Shown here: positions 3,644 through 25,131 of the stretch, one piece after another
Layout: each line of letters opens with the position of its first letter
Position numbering within the stretch: position 1 is the stretch's first letter
Virus record (IMG/VR): IMGVR_UViG_3300021957_000279
Coordinates: 1 to 25,131 of that record
Direction: 5' to 3' (one strand)
Origin: a virus
DNA: 25,131 nucleotides
The notes under the pieces: model-generated
What the model was told of the DNA's origin: nothing
Seen by the model: only the letters and a program-made list of their open reading frames with translations
Databases searched by the model: none
Made by a program: the position numbers and the translations under genes

Positions 3644-6088
3644 ATGGAAACAAATTTAATAAATAATATAGCAGATATATTAGAAAACAGAGTCACCAGT
3701 AGAGCAAATAATGCCTCTGGAGCTGCACAAATCTTTAGGGATACACAATGTGTCTACAATGATTATCGTACAGTAAAAATGCTGAACATAATATTCTCAT
3801 ATTTAATACAAAAGTTTAAACAAGAAGAAGGAATTATAAAATTAACAAACACATCTAAACATATTGGTGATATTGTGCTAAATATCTTAGACGCACGAGA
3901 ATCCAATTCTAGCGACTCTAAGTCAATCATGGTAGGTGACTTCATATTAGAACAATTAATTGAAGGAGGATACCTTATCTTAACCCGTGAGCCATTCTTT
4001 AGAGTAGAAGATGTATACTTTCAAAATAAAAAGAAAAAGTTCAATTACAATCCCTATATACTGGAAATGGGCACACAATTTCCAAAAATATCTATAAGTC
4101 CTGCTGAAAGAATCGGCATGTCATTACATAAATACACACCATGGCATAAAGATGAACGCATAAACCAAGGTCAAAAAGAAAAACTAATAAAATCTAATAT
4201 TGAACTAACAAAAGAATGTAACAAAAAACCTTTTATAAAATCAATAAATGCACTTGAAAATGTTAAATGGCAAATAAATCCAGATATAGCTAAGGTTAGC
4301 TTAGAACTAAAACCTCAACTAATATCAACTAACATAGAATTAGAAGACATAGACGGCAACTCAATAGATTTTAATGCTGTCGATATTAGAAGACAGGATA
4401 TTAATAAACATTTAAAAGATATAAAACTATATAGAAATAAAGATATATTTGAGCCTCATTTAGGCAACTCAAGTGCTGTACCTAAACTAGAAAAAGAACT
4501 AGAAACATTAAAAAACAGACACCTCAAGCTTAAAAACATACAGAAAAAACAAGAAACACAAGAAAAAATAGAAAAAATAACACAGACTTACAATATTGAG
4601 AACAGAAGATGGACAGATAAGCAATATTGTCTAAGAATTCAATCACAATCTGCAAGAAACAAGGCAATAATAGAAACAATTAGTGGAAATGAAACCGAAC
4701 CGGGCTGGTTAGGATATAAATTTTATCAATCAATGTATTTAGATTACAGAGGTAGAATATATAACCGTGATCCATACTTTAGTTATCAGTCTAATGACTT
4801 GGCAAGAGCACATTTCTTATTTGCTGAAGAAAAGCCTGTAACACAAGAGGGAGCAGAGTATACATTTATACATGCAGCAACATCATTTAATCAAACTTAT
4901 AAAATAAAAGAACTGCCTCTTCAAAAATGGCTTACATTTGACTATACAAAACCATTAGAGGCTGATGGACTAGTAGATATATCTGTAGATAAAATGGGTG
5001 TCATGGACAAACATAATTGGACTATAGAACATATTGAACGCATGTTAGATGTTGCAGAAAATCCTATTGGAACTCAAAATTATTGGATGTCTGCAGAAAA
5101 ACCTTGGGTATTTTTATCTTTATGTTTTGAAATTGGTGGAATTATTGGCAGTGCCCTCAGTGGTGAACCTTATTATTCTTCAATGCCAATCTCAATTGAC
5201 GGAGTTAACAACGGAACGCAACATTTAGCAGCAATGTCTTTAGATGAAAAAGCTGGTAAGCTTGTGGGTTTAATGCCAATGGATATACCAAAAGATTTTT
5301 ATCTTGTTATGGGTAAAGAAATATTAGAAATAAATAAACAATCAGAGATTGGAAAGAAGCTAAAAGAAATACCAATGAAACTAATACGCAAAGGCATAAG
5401 CAAAAGAGGCTCAATGACAAGAGCTTATGACGCAGGTGCTAGAAAGATTGGTGAAATAATATATCAGGATTCATACGATGCTGGTATTACATCTAAATAT
5501 AACATCACAAGATCAGACTCTAAAATGCTAGGCAAAGACTTAGTAAAAGCATACGACTCTGTATGTCATGGACCAGTAGAAATCAAAAGATATCTACAAG
5601 CATTAGTCAAATATAAAATAGAGTCAATGAACATGAAAGACATATCATGGACTACGCCAAGTGGCTTCCCAGTACTCACTCAGAAATGGGTAGCACGCAA
5701 AAAAGTATACCAAGGTTCGCTGCAAGGAAAAAAGATTAGTCATGTTTACTTAGAGGTAACTGACAAACCAGCATTAGCTGAACACCTGTCAGCTATTGGG
5801 GCAAACTGGGTACACTCATACGATGCAAGCCATATGTCGTTAGTTATTAATAAGCTAGGGCTTGCGAGTTTCGGGGCTATACACGATAGCTTTAGTGTGC
5901 ATGCCTCTGATGTTGAAGAGCTTATATACACAACAAAAAGCGAGTTCATTAAAATGTATGCAACAGATGTGTTTGCCAACATGCGAAAAGAAATCATATG
6001 GAACGATGAATTATTCAACGAGAACACACCAGAATTAGGTAAATTAATATTGGAAGATATATATAACTCAGACTTCTTCTTCTGCTGA
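3644..6088 (+). CDS. T7-type single-subunit DNA-directed RNA polymerase
   Basis: 814 aa (T7 RNAP has 883). It transcribes phage genes from phage promoters without host subunits. Visible motifs: LDYRGRIY (residues 366-373, the DxxGR element); motif A with catalytic Asp519 in SIDGVNNGTQH; motif B with Lys587 and Tyr595 in SKRGSMTRAY; motif C with catalytic Asp748 in IHDSF, preceded by VHSYDASH (723-730). The C-terminus ends in an aromatic FFF run, like the FAFA foot of T7 RNAP. The specificity-loop region lies about residues 670-710. At the motif B position where T7 has Gly640 there is Asp596. The start has a strong GGAGGT site. The gene stands alone between the terminator/repeats upstream and an 100-bp gap downstream. 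In N4 the comparable cytoplasmic enzyme is split in two genes; here it is one. Confidence 0.97.
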   Translation: METNLINNIADILENRVTSRANNASGAAQIFRDTQCVYNDYRTVKMLNIIFSYLIQKFKQEEGIIKLTNTSKHIGDIVLNILDARESNSSDSKSIMVGDFILEQLIEGGYLILTREPFFRVEDVYFQNKKKKFNYNPYILEMGTQFPKISISPAERIGMSLHKYTPWHKDERINQGQKEKLIKSNIELTKECNKKPFIKSINALENVKWQINPDIAKVSLELKPQLISTNIELEDIDGNSIDFNAVDIRRQDINKHLKDIKLYRNKDIFEPHLGNSSAVPKLEKELETLKNRHLKLKNIQKKQETQEKIEKITQTYNIENRRWTDKQYCLRIQSQSARNKAIIETISGNETEPGWLGYKFYQSMYLDYRGRIYNRDPYFSYQSNDLARAHFLFAEEKPVTQEGAEYTFIHAATSFNQTYKIKELPLQKWLTFDYTKPLEADGLVDISVDKMGVMDKHNWTIEHIERMLDVAENPIGTQNYWMSAEKPWVFLSLCFEIGGIIGSALSGEPYYSSMPISIDGVNNGTQHLAAMSLDEKAGKLVGLMPMDIPKDFYLVMGKEILEINKQSEIGKKLKEIPMKLIRKGISKRGSMTRAYDAGARKIGEIIYQDSYDAGITSKYNITRSDSKMLGKDLVKAYDSVCHGPVEIKRYLQALVKYKIESMNMKDISWTTPSGFPVLTQKWVARKKVYQGSLQGKKISHVYLEVTDKPALAEHLSAIGANWVHSYDASHMSLVINKLGLASFGAIHDSFSVHASDVEELIYTTKSEFIKMYATDVFANMRKEIIWNDELFNENTPELGKLILEDIYNSDFFFC

Positions 6089-7230: not shown

Positions 7231-7749
7231 ATGATACTAACTAATGTAAAAGTAAAATGGGCTAGAGTTGGAAGCAACCCTGCCAACAAGTATGCTTCTG
7301 AAGATACAGAATGGACAGTAGACTGTCATGTAACTGCAGAGCAATCTAAAGAATGGGTAGCCAGAGGATTGGCACAGAAAGAACGCTTCGATCCTGAAGA
7401 TGGCACACCATTTGTAAAAATAAAACGCAACACACACTTCAATAAAAAGAATCCTATAACAGGGACAATGGAAAAGATGGAAATCTCTGCACCATTTGTT
7501 AAAGATAAATACGGTGACAACCTAGGCGACACAGCCATAGGCAATGGTTCATTATGCAACGTACAATACATGGAAAGACCATGGGAGTACGCTGGAAAAA
7601 GTGGCATCGCTGCTACACTCGTAGGTGTACAGGTCATGGAACTAGTAGAGTATGAAGGTGGAGCTGGTGGAGATGAGTTTACTTATCTTGAAAGACCAAC
7701 TGCTGAAATTACTGAAACTGACGATTCGGATGAAAATATTCCGTTCTAA
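7231..7749 (+). CDS. Single-stranded DNA-binding protein (phage type)
   Basis: 172 aa. It probably coats single-stranded DNA during replication and recombination. The order of strands and the segment AIGNGSLCNVQYMERPWEY...GIAATLVGVQVMELVEY (about residues 102-142) match OB-fold phage SSB-like proteins (DUF2815/T7 gp2.5 kind of layout). The C-terminus is acidic and ends DDSDENIPF, very like the DDDIPF tip by which bacterial SSB recruits partners; T7 gp2.5 has an acidic tail instead. The start follows AAGGA. The next genes are a helicase of the RadD kind (E. coli RadD binds the SSB tip) and a primase. Family placement is by pattern. Confidence 0.75.
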   Translation: MILTNVKVKWARVGSNPANKYASEDTEWTVDCHVTAEQSKEWVARGLAQKERFDPEDGTPFVKIKRNTHFNKKNPITGTMEKMEISAPFVKDKYGDNLGDTAIGNGSLCNVQYMERPWEYAGKSGIAATLVGVQVMELVEYEGGAGGDEFTYLERPTAEITETDDSDENIPF

Positions 7750-15188: not shown

Positions 15189-15479
15189 ATGGCAGAGGAA
15201 AATAAAAGAAGTTATAACATCCTATCTATGGAAGGAATAACAGACCAAGATTATGTAAATGATTTTGGAGCACCACAAGAATTAGCTTACACTAAAGGAA
15301 TAAACAAGTGGCTAATAGAAGACACTTATAAAAAGAATATAGACGCAGAGTATAGAAAAGCAATTAAGCAAGGAAGAACAGAAGAAGAAGCAAACAAGTT
15401 TGCAAAAGAGGTGGCTGAGAAAGGACGCAAAGACGCTTGGAGAGCTCTTAGTAAAGCACAAAAAGCTAGAGGATATTAA
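15189..15479 (+). CDS. Small helical hypothetical protein, last gene of + strand unit
   Basis: 96 aa. The first 50 residues are mixed; the rest is a long charged helix rich in Lys, Glu and Ala (about residues 52-94), perhaps a scaffold- or nucleic-acid-binding type helix. It has an AGGA site and ends just before the bidirectional terminator, closing the rightward unit. Function unknown. Confidence 0.65.
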   Translation: MAEENKRSYNILSMEGITDQDYVNDFGAPQELAYTKGINKWLIEDTYKKNIDAEYRKAIKQGRTEEEANKFAKEVAEKGRKDAWRALSKAQKARGY

Positions 15480-15530: not shown

Positions 15531-18500
15531 TTATTTACCAGACCTCCAAGTCATAGCGTCTAAATCAGCATTGCCTTTATAGTTTTTAATCTGATTGTCA
15601 AGATTATCAGTAGAATAAAAGAACTGTTTGTAGTGTTGCTTATTTCTAGCAAACTGTTTCTTAGCAGTAAACAAAGCGCCCTCACCTCTAAAGTATTTAT
15701 TAAAATACCATTGAGTACCTCTTACTTTCTTACCTCTTACTGTTTTATCAGGAGTCTTCCAATCAAAAGATTGAGCCTCACGAATTAATCTACCATTAGA
15801 AGTCTCTGCCTTGTTAAACTTAGGGTCCCATGTAGAAGGTCCATCATCGACCATAGTTTCTGCTTTAGCTTCTGGCTTGAGCTTTCTTCTATAACGATGA
15901 TGACTCTGAAGTTTTTCCCAAACCTCATCTGTCATAGTTCCTTGACCTCTTTTAAAGATAGGATCACGCTTGTAGTTTTCATCCTTTATTTTTTGACCAT
16001 TAGAATCTAACTCAAATGTTAATGCAGTATAAAGAGCATGCATATGACTCCACTCTGGGTCAGTATTCATATCTCTGAATACATCATTCAACATGTCAGC
16101 ATATTCTTCAGCCTCTTTAGGCGTAACTAACAAGCCATCAAAGATATGTAAAGCAGTATTAACTTCTTTGTTTCTGGCAAGCTTAGTCTCGTGCATCTTA
16201 AAGATAGCTCTTTGCATGTTAGTATTGTCATTAGCATGAGTCAACATTACTGCCATCTGTGTTGCAGCCTTAAAGATTCTTATAGAATTACCAACACCTG
16301 ACAGGTCTTCTATATCTCTGCCAGCTTCGGTATCCCATTTCTTTTTCATGTGCTGCACTTGGATAGTCGATGCCGTCTTACCGTCAGGAAGTGTCCACGT
16401 TTGCTGTCTTTTGTCTCCGGGTTCTTTACTTATCCAAAACTGTGTGTCACCGATTGGAATCAAATGACCATCCATTGTAGGTATAAATAATTCAAAGCCT
16501 TGATTCACTGCTTCAGCACCCATTGCAGATAAAGCATTAGCAAATGTTTTGATCTGTCCAAAGTTAGTGTTAACAGCTTCCGCCATCATTACACCAAGAG
16601 GTTCAATGAAATCTCTATCAATATCTATACCAGCATCAGTTAATTTTTGCTGGAATTGAGCTCCATTCTGTCTCATAACTCCATCTACATAAGACCTAAC
16701 CTCTTCAATATGTCTAGCATCACCAGCACCATAAGCAAAAATCATCACAGGTTTCTTAGTAAATGCCCTTCCAAAAGTACTCTCACCAAACATATCCAAA
16801 GCTAAAGAAAACTTTTCAAGTCCACCATTATCTTGTGCGTCTTGCATTATAACTTTAAACTTCTTGCTCGTACCTTCCCTTAACATACCCGGGAAAGTAA
16901 CCAAGTCTCCAGACTCATTTACTCCAGCTCTAATGTTAGCAAAGTCTTTTACTAAAGAAGTGTTTACACTATTGTAAGCATCAAGATATGCAGTTAAAGC
17001 ACCCGGCTCTAAATCATATTTCTTTTCAAGCTCACGAACCTTCTCAGGATCATTCTGAATTTTTTCAAACTCATCATAATGTTTATTCCATAAAGCATAA
17101 TCTTCTTCACCAAATATAAGAGCACGACTTCCTGAAATTAAATCACCCGATTGTGCAGAAGCATGAGCAAGACCATTTGTTTTGCCGTCAATCTCTGTAA
17201 AGAAATTAGAAGTATAAGTAGGATTGTTTCCACTCATATGCTTCTTAAGTTTAATGCCCTCAAGTATTGCAGCAACTGAAGCAAACCCTTCCTCCTTTCC
17301 AGCTATTTTAAGTATGCCTTTAAGGTCTTGAGTAGCATCTAACTGCATCCACTTATCAATAGCTGCATCATATTCTAACGCTGCTTCAATAGGGTTCTTC
17401 ATATCCATACCAAAGCGTTTCATAATGCCAGCTTTAATTTGAATAACATCTTTTTTCTTTTTAAGATTGTAATTAACAGGAACACCAGCAGCAATTAAAG
17501 ACCTAGCAAACTTATTATGTTGATAGTTACCAACTGTTTGATCTACGTTAAGCCTCCAGTTCTTTCCATACTTATAAGTATAATAAAAAATCTTATTAAG
17601 ATTCGTTGTAGCAAACTCAATTGTATTTATAAACTGTTGGTCTTTAACTTTGTCACTAAAGTCCATATGTTGTGCAGCTTCTTCAGTACTTCTACCATTA
17701 TCTTTGGTATAAGTTTTTTCTTTTGCTCCTTCTATATTTAAATGAGGAGAATCTTTATGATAAAACCTTCCCTGTCTATCAGTTAAATAAACAAACCCCG
17801 GTCTACTTTGAAAGCTACCCTTGTTTCCATAGCCATTACCTTTTGTATTAAAGAAATTAGCACCATCTAATTCATTTAAAATAGTAGATGGTTCTGCACC
17901 CTGTGTCATTGCTTCTCGTTCTAACTCGTTTTGGTATTGAGTATATAACTTATCCCAAAACTCTTGCGACACACCATGAACAGCAACAGGTGTATTATCA
18001 GCCTGCTGTTTATGCATGGCTGCGATAGTTGTATCACCAAAAGGAATTGTCTCCTCTGTGTCATTGATACGTGTACCAATTAACTTTTCAATAGCTGTCT
18101 TATCTGTAAGTAAAGTACCGTACCTAACATTTCTTTGTGACTTAGGCATAACAACTTCAAACAAACCTTTCATATCTTGAGCTAAAGCAAGCCCACCTTT
18201 TGTTAAAGTGTATCCTATTAATGTTACTGGAACACCTTCCTTAACAGTAGGTACTTCTTCCTTTCTAAATAGCTGGTCTTTTTTAGTTTGATTTTTATCA
18301 AAAGTTTTAAACACTATGTCCATTGCTATAGCACCCATAGCTTCTTGCTGTTCAGAAGTAGTCTTCTCAAAACCCATGTTGTTTAAAATAGTTCTACCTA
18401 TTTGTTTTTGATCAGCAGCACCAGACATTAATGTTGCATCGTATCTTTTTATAGCAGCCTCAGTAGCCTCATTTTCTAACGAGCCTTCAGCTTCAGGGTC

Positions 18501-19673
18501 TTGCTTCTTTCCCTCATATCTATATACATTTTGAAGAGCATGATCAAATACTGACAACATCATTATGTCTGAAAAAGCTTGGGCAGCTGCTTCTGATTTC
18601 TCTTCTAATGCAGCATGAGTATGAATAAAAAGATTAATCATATCATTAATAGACTCACCTTTAAATTCATCGTATCTATTGCCAGTTATCTTTTCAGCAA
18701 ACCTTGTAGCAGCCATAGGAGAACGATTAATACTTGCAGCATGTACGCTTCTCACAAAAGAGCTCAATGTTTTTTGAGTCTTTGCTGCCATTTCTGCTGC
18801 ACGAATTACTGTTTCATCCTCTTGAGGAAAATTAGTGTTAGCTATTAAAGATTCAGTAGTGTCTAAATTACCAGCTTGATTCCAAGCTTCAATAGCATCA
18901 GCTTCTGAAACACCTTGTGCCATTTCCTTTTTAATATAATCCTTCATGTTGCCTCTATACTTCTGAGCAACAGGATTGTCTTTAATCTTTGTGCCTATAC
19001 CTGTAACCTGTGAAACAAATTTAGGTTGCACCCATGGCGTCCATGTTTTATAGTTTTGATTGTTGTTATCTTTAAGGTTGTCACCATTAGCATCGTATGC
19101 GTAATACTTTTCATTACTCATAGAGCCGGTAGACAAACCTAAAAATCTACCAAAAGCTTCATAAAGCCTAGGGTCAGAAGCAACTTGCTCAGGGTCAACG
19201 CCTGCTTGTCTAGCAAACTCTTCAAGCAATCTTGCTTCTTCATCGTAACTCAAGTCAGGGTCTTGCCCCATATTAGAATTATCAAACCTAGGATTAGCCA
19301 ACATAGCGTCAGCATAAGTTTGCGATTGACCAATAGCAGCAGCATCCGACTTAGCTAATGTAGCATCGCCCTCTGTTCTAGCTTGTCCTTGATTATATAC
19401 TGATGGTGTTTTTCTACCAGTGCCAGCCATAGAACTTAAAGCTGCTACACTTGTATCATATGCAGCATCAACCGCTTTGTAATTTTCATCCAGTTGAGCT
19501 CTTGTATCTGCAACAGACTGACCTGTTTCTTTTTTACCTTTTGGTTTTTGTGAAACAGGATCAACTTGTAATGCAGCAGTCCCTTCTAAAATACTTTTTA
19601 GAATTGGATTGTTTGATGCATCAACAAGACTTCTTCCACCCATTTGATTAGTGGTTTGTAGATTTAGAGCCAT
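15531..19673 (-). CDS. N4-like virion RNA polymerase candidate
   Basis: 1380 aa. The middle of the protein shows the complete set of single-subunit RNA polymerase motifs: TDRQGRFY (Asp632, Arg636, the DxxGR element); motif A EIDGKTNGLAH (catalytic Asp829); motif B RAFTKKPVMIFAYG (Arg969, Lys973, Tyr981, the same spacing as Arg627/Lys631/Tyr639 of T7 and Arg666/Lys670/Tyr678 of N4 mini-vRNAP); THANDNTNMQR (1145-1155); motif C LHIFDG (catalytic Asp1179). In T7 motif C has His before the Asp; here it is Phe. About 600 residues precede and 200 follow the core. It sits on the late strand next to internal virion protein genes, as gp50 does in N4, so it is probably packaged and injected to transcribe early genes. 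N4's enzyme is 3500 aa, so this one is greatly reduced. The start has an AGGAGAG site. Packaging is inferred. Confidence 0.85.
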   Translation of the reverse strand: MALNLQTTNQMGGRSLVDASNNPILKSILEGTAALQVDPVSQKPKGKKETGQSVADTRAQLDENYKAVDAAYDTSVAALSSMAGTGRKTPSVYNQGQARTEGDATLAKSDAAAIGQSQTYADAMLANPRFDNSNMGQDPDLSYDEEARLLEEFARQAGVDPEQVASDPRLYEAFGRFLGLSTGSMSNEKYYAYDANGDNLKDNNNQNYKTWTPWVQPKFVSQVTGIGTKIKDNPVAQKYRGNMKDYIKKEMAQGVSEADAIEAWNQAGNLDTTESLIANTNFPQEDETVIRAAEMAAKTQKTLSSFVRSVHAASINRSPMAATRFAEKITGNRYDEFKGESINDMINLFIHTHAALEEKSEAAAQAFSDIMMLSVFDHALQNVYRYEGKKQDPEAEGSLENEATEAAIKRYDATLMSGAADQKQIGRTILNNMGFEKTTSEQQEAMGAIAMDIVFKTFDKNQTKKDQLFRKEEVPTVKEGVPVTLIGYTLTKGGLALAQDMKGLFEVVMPKSQRNVRYGTLLTDKTAIEKLIGTRINDTEETIPFGDTTIAAMHKQQADNTPVAVHGVSQEFWDKLYTQYQNELEREAMTQGAEPSTILNELDGANFFNTKGNGYGNKGSFQSRPGFVYLTDRQGRFYHKDSPHLNIEGAKEKTYTKDNGRSTEEAAQHMDFSDKVKDQQFINTIEFATTNLNKIFYYTYKYGKNWRLNVDQTVGNYQHNKFARSLIAAGVPVNYNLKKKKDVIQIKAGIMKRFGMDMKNPIEAALEYDAAIDKWMQLDATQDLKGILKIAGKEEGFASVAAILEGIKLKKHMSGNNPTYTSNFFTEIDGKTNGLAHASAQSGDLISGSRALIFGEEDYALWNKHYDEFEKIQNDPEKVRELEKKYDLEPGALTAYLDAYNSVNTSLVKDFANIRAGVNESGDLVTFPGMLREGTSKKFKVIMQDAQDNGGLEKFSLALDMFGESTFGRAFTKKPVMIFAYGAGDARHIEEVRSYVDGVMRQNGAQFQQKLTDAGIDIDRDFIEPLGVMMAEAVNTNFGQIKTFANALSAMGAEAVNQGFELFIPTMDGHLIPIGDTQFWISKEPGDKRQQTWTLPDGKTASTIQVQHMKKKWDTEAGRDIEDLSGVGNSIRIFKAATQMAVMLTHANDNTNMQRAIFKMHETKLARNKEVNTALHIFDGLLVTPKEAEEYADMLNDVFRDMNTDPEWSHMHALYTALTFELDSNGQKIKDENYKRDPIFKRGQGTMTDEVWEKLQSHHRYRRKLKPEAKAETMVDDGPSTWDPKFNKAETSNGRLIREAQSFDWKTPDKTVRGKKVRGTQWYFNKYFRGEGALFTAKKQFARNKQHYKQFFYSTDNLDNQIKNYKGNADLDAMTWRSGK

Positions 19674-19688
19674 GCGGTCTCTCCTATA

Positions 19689-22600
19689 TTATAAAAGTGG
19701 TACTGATCTTTTAAGAGCTTCATTTATATTTATATCTCCCCTTCCTAAATTGTAATCTTTCCAGTATTTATTCTTACCTAAGAAAGGTATTTCTTTTGAA
19801 AGATACATGTTTCTTCTATTTAAATCACCATCAAGCTGTGACATAAAAATCTTAGCCAACTGTTCACCATGTGCATAGGTTGGACCAAGAAATTCTTTAA
19901 GTGCATGTCCACTCTTACGAGCTCCATAATCAAATGTAGATTCCCAAGGCTTCCTACTGTCATCATATATAGGACTAACAGCAGATAGAATTTTCTCAGG
20001 AGTTCCAAGAAGACCTGAAGAAGCAACGCCTCTTTGTACAAATCCTTTCTCAGAAAGCCAGCCCGGTCTTCCTCCATATCTCCACTCATCTTTCATTGCT
20101 TGACTAAGAAAACCTAGAACAATCATGGCAGATGCAATTGCAACAGCACTGTATTTAGCTGTCGGGTCTTGACCTTTAACTCTCTTCCATATCCTAGGAA
20201 GAATTGATGCAGTAAAGACAGACATAAAACCATTATACTGTGTAAACAATCGGTAGTATGGATTAGAATAAAACAAAGGTCTGTTCATTGCATCTGGATG
20301 AGCAATAGCATTATCTACCCAAGTCATTCTAGCAATGTCCATGTCCTCTATAAAGGTTGGGTCCATCTGTAATATTCTATCATAAAGAGTTTGCGTATCA
20401 TGACCTTCATTTAAAGTCATCCTTGCAGCATCAACCAAAGGCTTAAACCTGTTAGCAACTACATCAGGATCAATATTAAGTTCCCTCATTCTTTCAAAGG
20501 CATCATGAAACAAACCTGTGTTTCTATTCTCATGTCCCGGTGGGAACATTGCAATTATTTCTAAGTCTCCAAAGATAGCATCATTAGCTATAGCTAAACG
20601 TGCAACCCTAGTAGTATCAGTGTATATCTTTAAAAGGTTTGCTCTAAAGAATGTGCTCATTGCAAACTCTTTTATCTTAGAAGCTTTGTACACTCCTTCA
20701 TCAATACCTACTTGTCCAATAGCACCGTGAGTTGATGTACCAAAACCATACCTATAAAAGTCTGCTAGATTCCTGGTGTATTGTTCTCTTGTCATACCAA
20801 CCGTAGGGTTAATATAAGAGTAGCCATGCTTGCCTTCTGTAACATACTTTCGAGCAAAGTCATTAACACCCATTTGAAAAAGCTCCATAAGCTTTTTATC
20901 TCTTGTAGCGCCCATTAAAACAATCGCTGCTTCTGGCAGAGAAGCTAGAGCTGACAAGTCTAAGTGAGAAAAAGTATTGAAAAAAGTTATATGTCCAATC
21001 ATTCTCTCAGCTCTCTTGCTGCTCATTCTTCTATAGTCACCACGAGATGCAGCAATACTATCTGTAAAATGTGTTAGCATTCTTGGGTCCCAAGCATCTC
21101 CCATCTCATCTTTAAGCATCAACATTAATTTTTTAAATCGCTCTCCATCTCTACCAAGATATCGTCTATCAACAGCATAGTTAACCTGCTCTTGAATATT
21201 TTCTCTTAGTCTTTGAAACGGATCGTTCTCTAAGAATTTAGAATCTTCGCCAAATATTTTATAAAGTTGATCCTTAGATTGTTTAAGAGATCGTGATGGA
21301 AAGTTTAAGAAGCCAAGCTCTCGCAATGTAGCCTTGTCATAATGCATAGGTCCACTCTCAAGATATTCAAAGAACTCTTCTGCCTCTGTTTGTGACCAAC
21401 CAGAATTAGTAAGCCTCTCAATAAAACCATCTTTGTCTTTTACTACTTCAGCTAACTTAAGCTTTGCACTGTCTTGAAACCAAAAAGGTTTTCTTTGTAC
21501 TTCAGCTGTGTCACCAAGAAGTTTATTAATCTCTGTAAGTATATTGTCTGTAATACCTTTATTGCTTCCTTCAATTTGCCCACCAATTTTTTCAACCATT
21601 GCATCTAGTTGGTCAGCTATTTGATGATATTCTGGATTGGTTGGCTTACCTTCTCGTTTAGCTTTAAGATAATCTATAAATATTTTTGTAGCTTCTGCAT
21701 CTGTCTTGCCACCTATACCAACACCAAGCAAAGTATTTAAATCTGCTTTAAATTCTGCAACTTCAAACAATAACTTTTGTTGTAACAATCTTTTTGTATT
21801 ACCAAGATCAGTACCCTGCATCCATGCGTTCTTACCCATGCCTGCTATTGTTTGTATAATAGCAAAAAGCTCTAAGCCTTTTGTGTTTCCAGTCTTCTCC
21901 AGCTCTTTAACAACTCTGTTCTCCCAAAATGAACCTACCTTTTGAGTAAACTTCTTAGGAAATTCTTTAAGGTTTTGCCAAAGCGTTTTCTCTCCACCTC
22001 TAGTCTTAGATAAGTCTTGTTGATGACCTGTCTTATACTCCTCATCATACTCTGCTTTCCAATCTCTACCAGCACCTTCAAAGCTGTATACTGGTTCAGC
22101 ATCTGGGTCTCCTTCTTCCTTAACAATAGGGTTTCCATCTTCATCAAGAATAACTGAAACCTTTTCCTCGTCTTTAGATTGCAACATATCATCTGCTCTA
22201 TCTAAAACATTTCCACCAAACCAATTCTTATTCTTTTCAGCAGGGCTTACGTCTCTTTTTAATCTGTTAAACCCAGCAATCTCACCATAAGTAGTTGTTG
22301 TTCCAGCAATACCTCCACCCAAAACAAAGCCTCCAGCAGTTGCGTTAATCGCAATGCGTTGCCATTCGTCCATATCAAGGTCAGGTCTTATACTACTGTC
22401 AGTTCCAAAGTGTCCAGCAAAATAACCTGCAGACTCTTGAAGAAATTCTGTTCCTCCTTCTACGCCCATACCTTTAGCAGTTCTTTTTCCTACAGACTTA
22501 GCTAATAATGTTTTGTTTAATTGCATGTCTGCCATTGATGCTATATCTTTTAAAGCTAATGCCTTAAGATTACCCATCTTGTCAGTAATGATTTTTGTGG

Positions 22601-23783
22601 CTGCGTCTTCTGGTATGCCTTCTTTCTTTGCATACTCTTTAGCTATCATTCTTATACCGTCTTTTCTAAGAGCTGTTGATGCACCCATAATACCTTTAAG
22701 ACCTAGCATATCTAATGCAGCCATAACAATACCAGCTGAAAGAGCAAGACCTGCATTCTTTTGATCCATGCCACCTTGCATATTACCGTAAGCTTCACCC
22801 GCATATACCCAAACAGCAGGAGCAAAAGCCATAGTCATACCAACACCAAATGCACCGGGTCCTAATATTGGAGAAGTCGCAGCTATCACACCACCAACTG
22901 CTCTAGTTCCTATTAGTCCAAGCATGTATGGCAAAGCAACTCCAGAAATACCAGCAACCCAACTACCAAAACTCTTTGCGTCAGTTACATCCATCAAGTC
23001 GTTACTAAAAATAGGTCGCTTAGAATTGTCATAGTCAGCTTCTCGAGAGCGCACCATACCCCATTCATACATGTCTTCATTATCTAACATGTCACCAAAC
23101 ATAGCTACAGCTTCTGTTGCAGACTGCTTAATAGAACCCCATCCAACTGCCCAGCCAGTTCTAAAATTACTATTGGCAATATTGTCTAAGTCTCTATCTT
23201 CATGTCTATACTGTACATCATGCTGATAAAGAGGGCTGTAACTTTTTCCAAAGTAAGCATTGTATTCAGCTAGTTCTGCTTCATCAGTAGCCATTTCTTT
23301 AAAGCCACCCATGGTTTCATTCATGTATGTTGTCTGCTCGTCTCTAGCTTGTTGCCAGATGTCGTCTTTCTCGCCCTCAACTTCAGACCTAAAAGCTCTA
23401 GCAAATACACCCATGTCAGCAAGCTCTTGTGTTGCTTCATCTTTAGGTCTAGCTAAGCCTTCATAATAAAGTTTGTCTGAAAAAGATTCGCCATACTCAT
23501 CTTGTCTACCGCCTAAATCTCTGCCGTAATATCCTTTATCACCAGTACGATATGTACCAGTGTATCCAGATTCATTTGCAAGGTTAGCATATAGCTTAGT
23601 ATAGAACTCGCCTCCCCAATCTCCGGGAACAAAGCCGTCCTTTTTCATATGGTCAACTTCAGGAGCGTTTAAGTTGTCATACCTTATATCTCCAGCAGAA
23701 TCTCTTACAGTATCTGCATCAAGGTCAAACACCAATGGCATTTTTTCTTGTAGCATTTGCATGTAAGTTTTTTCTTCAGCCAT
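19689..23783 (-). CDS. Large internal virion protein with N-terminal staphylococcal-nuclease-like domain
   Basis: 1364 aa. Residues about 16-113 match the SNase fold: DADTVRD (Asp24), Arg34, NAPE (Glu42), and YYGRDLG (Arg88), then YYEGLARP as in the final SNase helix. Arg34-Glu42 spacing (8) and Glu42-Arg88 spacing (46, versus 44) follow the known enzyme; Asp40 of SNase is Asn39 here. The rest is not an enzyme I recognise: a hydrophobic Gly/Ala-rich region (about 274-368), another near 480-500 and one near 1230, with long helical stretches, as in ejection proteins that insert into host membranes. The gene lies between the polymerase and a third late gene. The start follows a GGAG site. Virion location is inferred from position, size and composition. 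Confidence 0.75.
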   Translation of the reverse strand: MAEEKTYMQMLQEKMPLVFDLDADTVRDSAGDIRYDNLNAPEVDHMKKDGFVPGDWGGEFYTKLYANLANESGYTGTYRTGDKGYYGRDLGGRQDEYGESFSDKLYYEGLARPKDEATQELADMGVFARAFRSEVEGEKDDIWQQARDEQTTYMNETMGGFKEMATDEAELAEYNAYFGKSYSPLYQHDVQYRHEDRDLDNIANSNFRTGWAVGWGSIKQSATEAVAMFGDMLDNEDMYEWGMVRSREADYDNSKRPIFSNDLMDVTDAKSFGSWVAGISGVALPYMLGLIGTRAVGGVIAATSPILGPGAFGVGMTMAFAPAVWVYAGEAYGNMQGGMDQKNAGLALSAGIVMAALDMLGLKGIMGASTALRKDGIRMIAKEYAKKEGIPEDAATKIITDKMGNLKALALKDIASMADMQLNKTLLAKSVGKRTAKGMGVEGGTEFLQESAGYFAGHFGTDSSIRPDLDMDEWQRIAINATAGGFVLGGGIAGTTTTYGEIAGFNRLKRDVSPAEKNKNWFGGNVLDRADDMLQSKDEEKVSVILDEDGNPIVKEEGDPDAEPVYSFEGAGRDWKAEYDEEYKTGHQQDLSKTRGGEKTLWQNLKEFPKKFTQKVGSFWENRVVKELEKTGNTKGLELFAIIQTIAGMGKNAWMQGTDLGNTKRLLQQKLLFEVAEFKADLNTLLGVGIGGKTDAEATKIFIDYLKAKREGKPTNPEYHQIADQLDAMVEKIGGQIEGSNKGITDNILTEINKLLGDTAEVQRKPFWFQDSAKLKLAEVVKDKDGFIERLTNSGWSQTEAEEFFEYLESGPMHYDKATLRELGFLNFPSRSLKQSKDQLYKIFGEDSKFLENDPFQRLRENIQEQVNYAVDRRYLGRDGERFKKLMLMLKDEMGDAWDPRMLTHFTDSIAASRGDYRRMSSKRAERMIGHITFFNTFSHLDLSALASLPEAAIVLMGATRDKKLMELFQMGVNDFARKYVTEGKHGYSYINPTVGMTREQYTRNLADFYRYGFGTSTHGAIGQVGIDEGVYKASKIKEFAMSTFFRANLLKIYTDTTRVARLAIANDAIFGDLEIIAMFPPGHENRNTGLFHDAFERMRELNIDPDVVANRFKPLVDAARMTLNEGHDTQTLYDRILQMDPTFIEDMDIARMTWVDNAIAHPDAMNRPLFYSNPYYRLFTQYNGFMSVFTASILPRIWKRVKGQDPTAKYSAVAIASAMIVLGFLSQAMKDEWRYGGRPGWLSEKGFVQRGVASSGLLGTPEKILSAVSPIYDDSRKPWESTFDYGARKSGHALKEFLGPTYAHGEQLAKIFMSQLDGDLNRRNMYLSKEIPFLGKNKYWKDYNLGRGDININEALKRSVPLL

Positions 23784-23792
23784 TATAGACTC

Positions 23793-25131
23793 CTATTTTT
23801 TTGGTGTTACAACAATACCTTTATCTATTAAATACTTAATAGCAAAATCTGTTCTTTCCTGATTAGATTTTCCAACAAAGTCAGGGTCATACTTTGTGCC
23901 TATTTGATCTAATGCTTTAACATGTTTATTAACATACCAAATAAAACCACCAATGCCTTGTTGATTAGCTCGTTCAACCATCTCTGCATGCTCTTCAGGT
24001 TTAGACTTCTGCCAATCGTAATAATCTTTAGCCATCAAAACAAGAGTTCCACGCTCATTAAAGCCCTCAGAATAACTTTGAATTTTACTGTAAGCTCCAT
24101 TAGTTGCTTCCATGCCTGCTTTAAAATTAATGTCATCAGTATTAATACCCATGCCTCTTAAATCATCAACACTTGGATTGGTATCCTTCATAGATAATGG
24201 AGAATCTTCTTCCATTCTTATTTTAATAAAGGCATCTTGCATATAATTTGCAAAAGCTGGTACGCCTTTTCCAAAATTATTACTAGGATTTGTTTTATCT
24301 GAAAACCATTTTTCAAACTGTGTATTAAATGCAACCCTTTGATCATTGTTGTTTTTTAAATCCCATACAACATTTGGCTGGAGTCTTTTAACGGTTTGCA
24401 AAGCACGGTCATATTCAAATTCAAAATTATACGGACCAATGCTTTTCTTTTGGTCGTCAGTAAGAATGCTTTCATAATGAGTACCCTGATCTTTTATCCA
24501 ATCTTGATTGCCACTAGTTCTAGCTTTAACTTCTGCTTCTGCTTCCTTAGCTGCTTCAACTCCTTTTTCAACCCTAAGCTTTTCCATTTCTAAAGTAAAG
24601 TCTCTAAGCTTTCTACGATCATTTTCTATGTTCGCTCTGTTTTCTTTAGCAACAGTCTTAGCTAACTCAGCAGCTGTTGCAGCTTCCGCTGCTTCTGCAG
24701 CTTCTTCTGCTGCGTAATCATCAGCAACTACACCAAACCCTGTGTTCATAGCAGTCGTAAAGTCATCGCCAAATAACATAGCAAGCATGCCAATAGCCAT
24801 AGCTTTTCTAAATCTTCTGTCTACTGATGGAGAGTCTTTAAGATTTTGTAAATAATCTTCAGCTTCTTTAATAGCTACTTCATCTGAAACTGTATCAGCC
24901 CATGTAGCAAACTCATTAAGAACTTTAATGCCTTCAGGATTTGTGTTCTTAATTTCTGTGATAGCATCTACAACAACATCTTCATCCTTTTTGCTAGTTA
25001 TATCTGTAGTAGCCTCTTTTTTTACGTCCTTAGTTATTTCATTTATATCTAAATTAGCAAAAGTAGAATCAATAACTTGTCCTTTAGAATCAAATAAAGG
25101 TGTAGAGTTTTCAGCTGCAATAGTTTCTAAA
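23793..25131 (-). CDS. Third internal virion protein, partial at window edge
   Basis: The frame stays open from its stop at 23793 to the window end at 25131 (about 446 codons), so the gene starts beyond the window. An ATG at 24798-24800 has no ribosome binding site, and the reading continues upstream with acidic residues (NPEGIKV..., KDSPSVDRRFRK), so it is an internal Met. Features: a short hydrophobic patch (MAIGMLAMLFG), then an Ala/Glu-rich helix likely to form a coiled coil (roughly the next 90 residues), then a mixed domain. This is typical of ejection or core proteins. No catalytic motif seen. It is separated from the 1364-aa gene by nine bases. Confidence 0.8.
   Translation of the reverse strand, partial: LETIAAENSTPLFDSKGQVIDSTFANLDINEITKDVKKEATTDITSKKDEDVVVDAITEIKNTNPEGIKVLNEFATWADTVSDEVAIKEAEDYLQNLKDSPSVDRRFRKAMAIGMLAMLFGDDFTTAMNTGFGVVADDYAAEEAAEAAEAATAAELAKTVAKENRANIENDRRKLRDFTLEMEKLRVEKGVEAAKEAEAEVKARTSGNQDWIKDQGTHYESILTDDQKKSIGPYNFEFEYDRALQTVKRLQPNVVWDLKNNNDQRVAFNTQFEKWFSDKTNPSNNFGKGVPAFANYMQDAFIKIRMEEDSPLSMKDTNPSVDDLRGMGINTDDINFKAGMEATNGAYSKIQSYSEGFNERGTLVLMAKDYYDWQKSKPEEHAEMVERANQQGIGGFIWYVNKHVKALDQIGTKYDPDFVGKSNQERTDFAIKYLIDKGIVVTPKK

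Follow-up and report, generated by a model that had tools for sequence, protein, structure and literature searches.

The virion RNA polymerase (vRNAP) of phage N4, gp50, has been treated as a giant enzyme typical of the Schitoviridae. Reference proteins of this family measure 2,842-3,820 amino acids (aa), and the motif ExDGxxxG has been used to define and filter them (PMC10654107); N4-like virion RNA polymerases (RNAPs) have been described only from N4-like phages and prophages, where they are almost always fused to a metallopeptidase (PMC5512222). Outside the Schitoviridae, one report proposes a putative vRNAP, StenR_269 / DES1, from its size, absence of cysteine (Cys) and helicity (PMC10747016). 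We analysed a 25,131-base IMG/VR virus record (IMGVR_UViG_3300021957_000279; the window, by which we mean this whole stretch) from a phage described as marine, whose plus strand holds early and replication genes and whose minus strand holds three large late genes. The last gene of the late operon (15531..19673, minus strand) starts with ATG and encodes a 1380-aa protein with 0 Cys, confirming an open reading frame (ORF) called in a first-pass annotation of this DNA. We put the probability that this protein is a packaged early-transcription enzyme, a compact N4-type virion RNAP, at roughly 0.84.

The protein resembles N4 gp50 and other Schitoviridae vRNAPs (phrog_2206) in its motifs T, A (ExDGxxxG), B (R-x3-K-x-P-x5-YGxG) and C (IFDG). 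Like gp50, it has no Cys, adjoins Cys-free ejection proteins and ends the late operon beside convergent replication genes, and both phages encode a second RNAP in the early region. Unlike gp50, it is 1380 rather than 3500 aa long, lacks the ~1,400-aa C-terminal domain described for N4 (PMC12633501) and has far less sequence before its core than the 1,000 aa of N4; its neighbours are proteins of 1364 and ~732 aa, as against N4 gp51 (644) and gp52 (150). Neither giant size with N- and C-terminal domains nor nesting within the giant clade is found for the window protein, and no metallopeptidase domain was detected in it. With T7-like RNAPs (Autographiviridae, phrog_414) and with the phage's own 814-aa RNAP it shares the fold and catalytic residues, but, unlike T7-like enzymes, it has neither the DxxGR Asp (D) nor the motif C HDS, carries an E two positions ahead of the motif A Asp, contains no Cys and is encoded in the late operon. 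StenR_269 / DES1 is likewise a large Cys-free protein outside the Schitoviridae, although in the available portion of its report the proposal is made without catalytic motifs (PMC10747016), whereas the polymerase core of the window protein is established by sequence and model.

Three of the four catalytic motifs named in the first-pass annotation are present as described. Motif A (17172..17195, minus strand) reads E827-I-D829-G-K-T-N-G834 and thus includes the expected Asp829. Motif B (16722..16769, minus strand), R969-AFT-K973-KPVMIFA-Y981-G-A-G984, extends the predicted R969-x3-K973-x7-Y981-G to G-x-G984, with the same spacing as T7 (R627/K631/Y639) and N4 (R666/K670/Y678). Motif C (16122..16151, minus strand), LHIFD1179GLLVT, places Asp1179 in F1178-D1179-G and corresponds to KIFDG of N4. 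The fourth, DxxGR at residues 632-636 (DRQGR; 17766..17780, minus strand), is not conserved in relatives and is not a catalytic motif: D632 is N in 3 of 7 aligned proteins, R636 is Q or N in 5 of 7, and the pattern arises in 1296 of 5000 shuffles of the protein. The actual motif T is G703-K-N-W-R707, which aligns with TRVGR of N4 (R424), WKNGR of pVa5 and DWRGR of T7; the wider motif T region, G703KNWR707...K721xxR724 (17502..17567, minus strand), is the equivalent of N4 R424, K437 and R440. The full set of N4 equivalents is R424, E557/D559, R666/K670/Y678 and D951 (PMC2784036, PMC4496689 and this analysis).

Single motifs are weak evidence, since R-x3-K-x7-YG appears in 51 and ExDGxxNG in 12 of 5000 shuffles; the A-B-C set in the right order, as first reported, appears in 0 of 5000. 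R707, D829, R969, K973, Y981 and D1179 do not vary across the seven rows of a full-protein alignment (the window protein and six others, 35-84% identical), nor in any relative that covers these positions. When giant vRNAPs are aligned together with the compact proteins, all the motifs fall in line: R707, E827-x-D829, R969/K973/Y981 and D1179. The motif A Glu, E827, is missing from T7 and from the 814-aa RNAP, and the ExDGxxxG family filter is matched in the window protein by E827-IDGKTN-G834.

Profile searches agree with this picture. The full 1380-aa protein matches PF00940 at 4.9e-4, under the curated cut-off, and the core fragment matches phrog_2206 (virion RNA polymerase) at 6.5e-12 and phrog_414 (T7-type RNA polymerase) at 4.6e-10. 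The orthologue P0007 matches phrog_2206 at 1.5e-12, and the relative L049 matches phrog_2206 and phrog_414 at 4.7e-16 and 4.8e-13. By tblastn the window protein reaches Vibrio Schitoviridae vRNAPs at 3e-5, and an hhalign comparison of a ten-relative profile with an N4/pVa5/49B3 vRNAP profile (97%, 8.5e-11) puts R424, D559, K670 and Y678 in register; phmmer against PDB sequences returned no match. We also modelled the polymerase core (residues 560-1262; 15888..17996, minus strand) with AlphaFold2 from an alignment of 21 sequences, obtaining a predicted local distance difference test score (pLDDT) of 72 and a predicted template modelling score (pTM) of 0.69. All 50 PDB matches listed are T7 or mitochondrial RNAPs, the best at 5.7e-10, and matches in BFVD include T7-type RNAPs and several N4-type vRNAPs. 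With a global TM-score of only ~0.46, the core model supports the fold but not an accurate domain arrangement, and an earlier model (residues 240-1380, ten sequences; pLDDT 49, pTM 0.32) gives a hint only.

Together, these data make it close to certain that the 1380-aa protein is a single-subunit RNAP of the T7/N4 superfamily, with an active site that is intact by sequence and model. Fold search with the predicted core cannot by itself separate N4-type from T7-type enzymes; the N4-type assignment follows from the ExDGxxxG, KxPxxxxxYGxG and IFDG (motif C) sequences and the phrog_2206 match. The first-pass identification of a polymerase is borne out by profile matches, motif alignment and predicted fold.

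The signs that this polymerase is packaged are strong but indirect. Its gene comes last in the leftward late operon and borders directly on replication genes that run towards it, the arrangement also seen for N4 gp50. Cys is absent from the 1380, 1364 and 445 aa of the window's three late proteins. The second of these is a putative ejection protein (19689..23783, minus strand; hydrophobic segments at ~344-362 and ~1208-1226), whose homologues include gp34 of Roseobacter phage CRP-7 and Vibrio and Pseudomonas phage proteins that carry particle or structural annotations; the third (23793..25130, minus strand) is open at the window edge, with 445 aa seen, and is syntenic with a 732-aa, 0-Cys ORF in a related record, G001. 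The syntenic late proteins of relatives have 0 Cys when intact, and one Cys lies in a frame-broken piece of the G001 copy. Replication-side proteins contain 60 Cys in 3411 aa and the second RNAP 6 in 814; zero Cys has a probability of ~2e-11 at the former rate and 4e-5 at the latter. The three ejected proteins of N4 (gp50, gp51 and gp52) contain 0 Cys in 4294 aa, and most other N4 proteins checked contain Cys. Absence of Cys in vRNAPs has been linked to ejection and passage into the cell (PMC3715699, PMC2784036).

Further, where records share 82-100% identity in their ribonucleotide reductase (RNR), primase and helicase, the vRNAPs are only 31-42% and the neighbouring proteins 50-59% identical. 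Because the vRNAP and its neighbours diverge while the replication genes stay ~90% identical, the polymerase evolves, and probably recombines, with the virion module and not with the gene-expression module. In Vibrio phage IME271 (L089, 4741-7524), the long late genes end with the homologue of the 1364-aa neighbour and no vRNAP follows, an arrangement that suggests gain or loss of the vRNAP gene at the operon end. Packaging, which the first-pass annotation argued from the late-strand position, is an inference that now has better support, from the 0-Cys ejection cassette, the N4-like gene order and the co-divergence with virion genes.

Searching with the window protein and with patterns for motifs A and B, we recovered full-length or partial relatives in at least nine other IMG/VR contigs. 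Identity to the window protein is 83-86% in G001 and G002, 40-42% in G003 and G004, 31-33% in G005, G006, G007, G008 and G010, and ~30% locally in G009. The open frames of these relatives span 1184-1414 aa, apart from 1668 aa in G009 (L073:10503-15509, minus strand), where an N-terminal DEDD-type exonuclease (PF00929, 8.3e-13) is fused to the RNAP core. Sequencing errors probably account for the several frames into which the G001 copy is split. Every relative record that reaches far enough also encodes a T7-type RNAP of 809-823 aa. No relatives were found in bacterial genome contigs, and a tblastn search of cultured phages gave only giant Schitoviridae vRNAPs of ~3,500 aa (EcP1, 3502 aa) and stray weak matches. 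In an unrooted core tree, built on a distant and difficult alignment, the giants form one clade (support 92), the T7-like enzymes another (support 100), and the compact proteins a separate one. We also considered whether frameshift or truncation of a Schitovirus gene could account for the window ORF, and rejected this: full-length compact orthologues recur, and the giants are a clade of their own.

We then looked at hairpins of the kind used by N4. As a positive control, the N4 early region yielded hairpins with 3-nucleotide loops at 90, 557 and 4546; their positions and common sequence lead us to regard them as the published P1-P3 promoters. The 6.8-kb early region of G006 contains only two hairpins with an 8-bp stem and a 3-nucleotide loop, both within its first 181 bases, at the head of the early region (record positions 60-78 and 163-181; GGTTTCATTGCATGAAACC). 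They have TTCAYTGCRTGAA in common, as well as a TTRATGAT tail, and where their stems differ the base pairing is compensated; two such hairpins arise in 0 of 5000 shuffles of the tested stretch. The early region of G004 (hairpins at record positions 24701-24754 and 23158-23182; GACAAACTTACAGTTTGTC) has two tandem 8-bp hairpins with the core CTTACAG near its head (0 of 2000 shuffles), which lie within a 35-base repeat and hence are not two independent cases, and 1.5 kb downstream another hairpin has this core; here too, stem differences are compensated. The regions for these shuffle tests were picked after the scan, and the G004 and G006 hairpin sequences are unlike each other. These data are suggestive of candidate N4-style promoters in the two records.

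Several observations weigh against a packaged N4-type enzyme. Other virion proteins may also be free of Cys, as the N4 major capsid protein (MCP) is. The fold search favours T7 and mitochondrial RNAPs, with no N4 mini-vRNAP among the 50 PDB matches listed, and the compact proteins are not nested among the giant vRNAPs in the tree. No repeated hairpin was found in the window, G001, G005 or G009, of which the window and G001 end short of the genome end expected to hold early promoters, and the single repeated hairpin core of CRP-7 is not significant. The indirect nature of the packaging evidence belongs here too, and it leaves some room, at a probability that we judge low, for an active single-subunit RNAP that is made late and used inside the cell without being packaged; by sequence and fold the protein does belong to a superfamily whose members are mostly non-virion. 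Such a role would sit poorly with a phage that already has an ordinary 814-aa RNAP, with a complete lack of Cys that is common to the N4 ejection proteins but not to the second RNAP or the replication proteins, and with a gene that is located in the virion module and diverges with it.

It is considerably less probable that the protein is a degenerate descendant of a vRNAP that no longer polymerises and serves only as a structural or DNA-internalising ejection protein. Fast sequence divergence among relatives would fit such a history, as would CRP-7 gp33, which occupies the same place with no detectable similarity, but a dead enzyme would not be expected to keep all six catalytic residues invariant, and two relatives carry hairpin repeats resembling vRNAP promoters. 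Chance motifs in a large helical internal virion protein without a polymerase fold, an idea to which the spurious DxxGR and the poor first model (pLDDT 49) lend something, are refuted to near certainty by the core phrog, hhalign and PDB fold matches together, alongside the invariant catalytic set, the ordered motifs absent from shuffles, and a second model (pTM 0.69) with only RNAPs among the matches listed. The evidence supports a compact form of the N4-type virion RNAP.

Roseobacter phage CRP-7 (MK613349), the cultured phage nearest to this one, has the same layout. Among cultured phages, its gp30 comes closest to the 814-aa RNAP (30.5% over the full length), gp34 is homologous to the 1364-aa protein (4e-23) and gp32 is related to a 96-aa protein of the window (31%). 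At the vRNAP position lies gp33 (L007:17859-21566, minus strand), a Cys-free protein of 1235 aa; the authors of the CRP-7 study gave ORF30 as the sole RNAP (PMC6918029). We considered gp33 as a possible orthologue of the window protein; neither BLAST nor hhalign finds similarity, despite motif-like stretches (E-x-D, YG, HDA) and the shared locus. With proteins from L012, L015 and L016, gp33 forms a ~1235-aa Cys-free family at the vRNAP locus, containing motif-like ESDARQSNAG, KDYxRGLVVAGLYG and AIHDALI stretches and having no profile similarity to any RNAP.

The 96-aa protein (15189..15479, plus strand) is convergent beside the vRNAP locus and is conserved there throughout the relatives (37-89%), as well as in CRP-7 and phages related to it (27-32%). 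A role together with the vRNAP or the ejection cassette is possible. The second, T7-type RNAP (3644..6088, plus strand; 814 aa, 6 Cys), which the first-pass annotation did not mention, is presumed to be the middle/late enzyme. A gp2.5-like single-stranded DNA-binding protein (SSB) is encoded at 7231..7749 (plus strand), and the role of SSB matters in the model of N4 early promoters. The other plus-strand genes encode a helicase, primase, exonuclease, RusA, B12-dependent RNR and endonuclease VII. We recognised no gene for a DNA polymerase in the early and replication region of the window or G006, both incomplete records, although genes for helicase, primase, SSB, exonuclease and RNR are present. 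The Schitoviridae hallmarks (N4 portal, large terminase subunit TerL, MCP and DNA polymerase) were not seen in the window or the scanned ORFs of G001, likewise incomplete records in which no test was aimed at them.

If the 1380-aa protein is a packaged early-transcription enzyme, it would be packed in the head beside its Cys-free neighbours, threaded through the tail and a channel built by Cys-free ejection proteins, and refolded in the host cytoplasm, where it would transcribe early genes from small DNA hairpin promoters, starting without the host enzyme. The 814-aa RNAP would be one early product, and middle and late transcription would then pass to it. Translated to N4, the 1380-aa protein would act as gp50 does and the 814-aa protein as RNAPII (gp15/gp16) does.

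The existence of natural versions of 1.2-1.7 thousand aa, with the active site conserved and Cys-free ejection proteins alongside, implies that as little as ~40% of the N4 length may be enough for packaging, ejection and early transcription. The compact family also provides small enzymes, together with candidate hairpin promoters, that can be used in comparisons. An IMG/VR survey of N4-like phages dropped vRNAP relatives shorter than 2,500 aa (PMC10654107); this cut-off would have excluded the compact class and left phages with a compact-vRNAP strategy uncounted, so that whole phage groups seem to be missed by surveys that keep giant proteins only. It is tentatively possible, at somewhat less than even odds, that virion-carried single-subunit RNAPs are broader than the Schitoviridae giants and include a separate compact lineage in several uncultured phage groups, perhaps with CRP-7 gp33 as a barely recognisable member, that uses group-specific hairpin promoters. 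If so, the giant N4 form would be one elaboration and not the norm.

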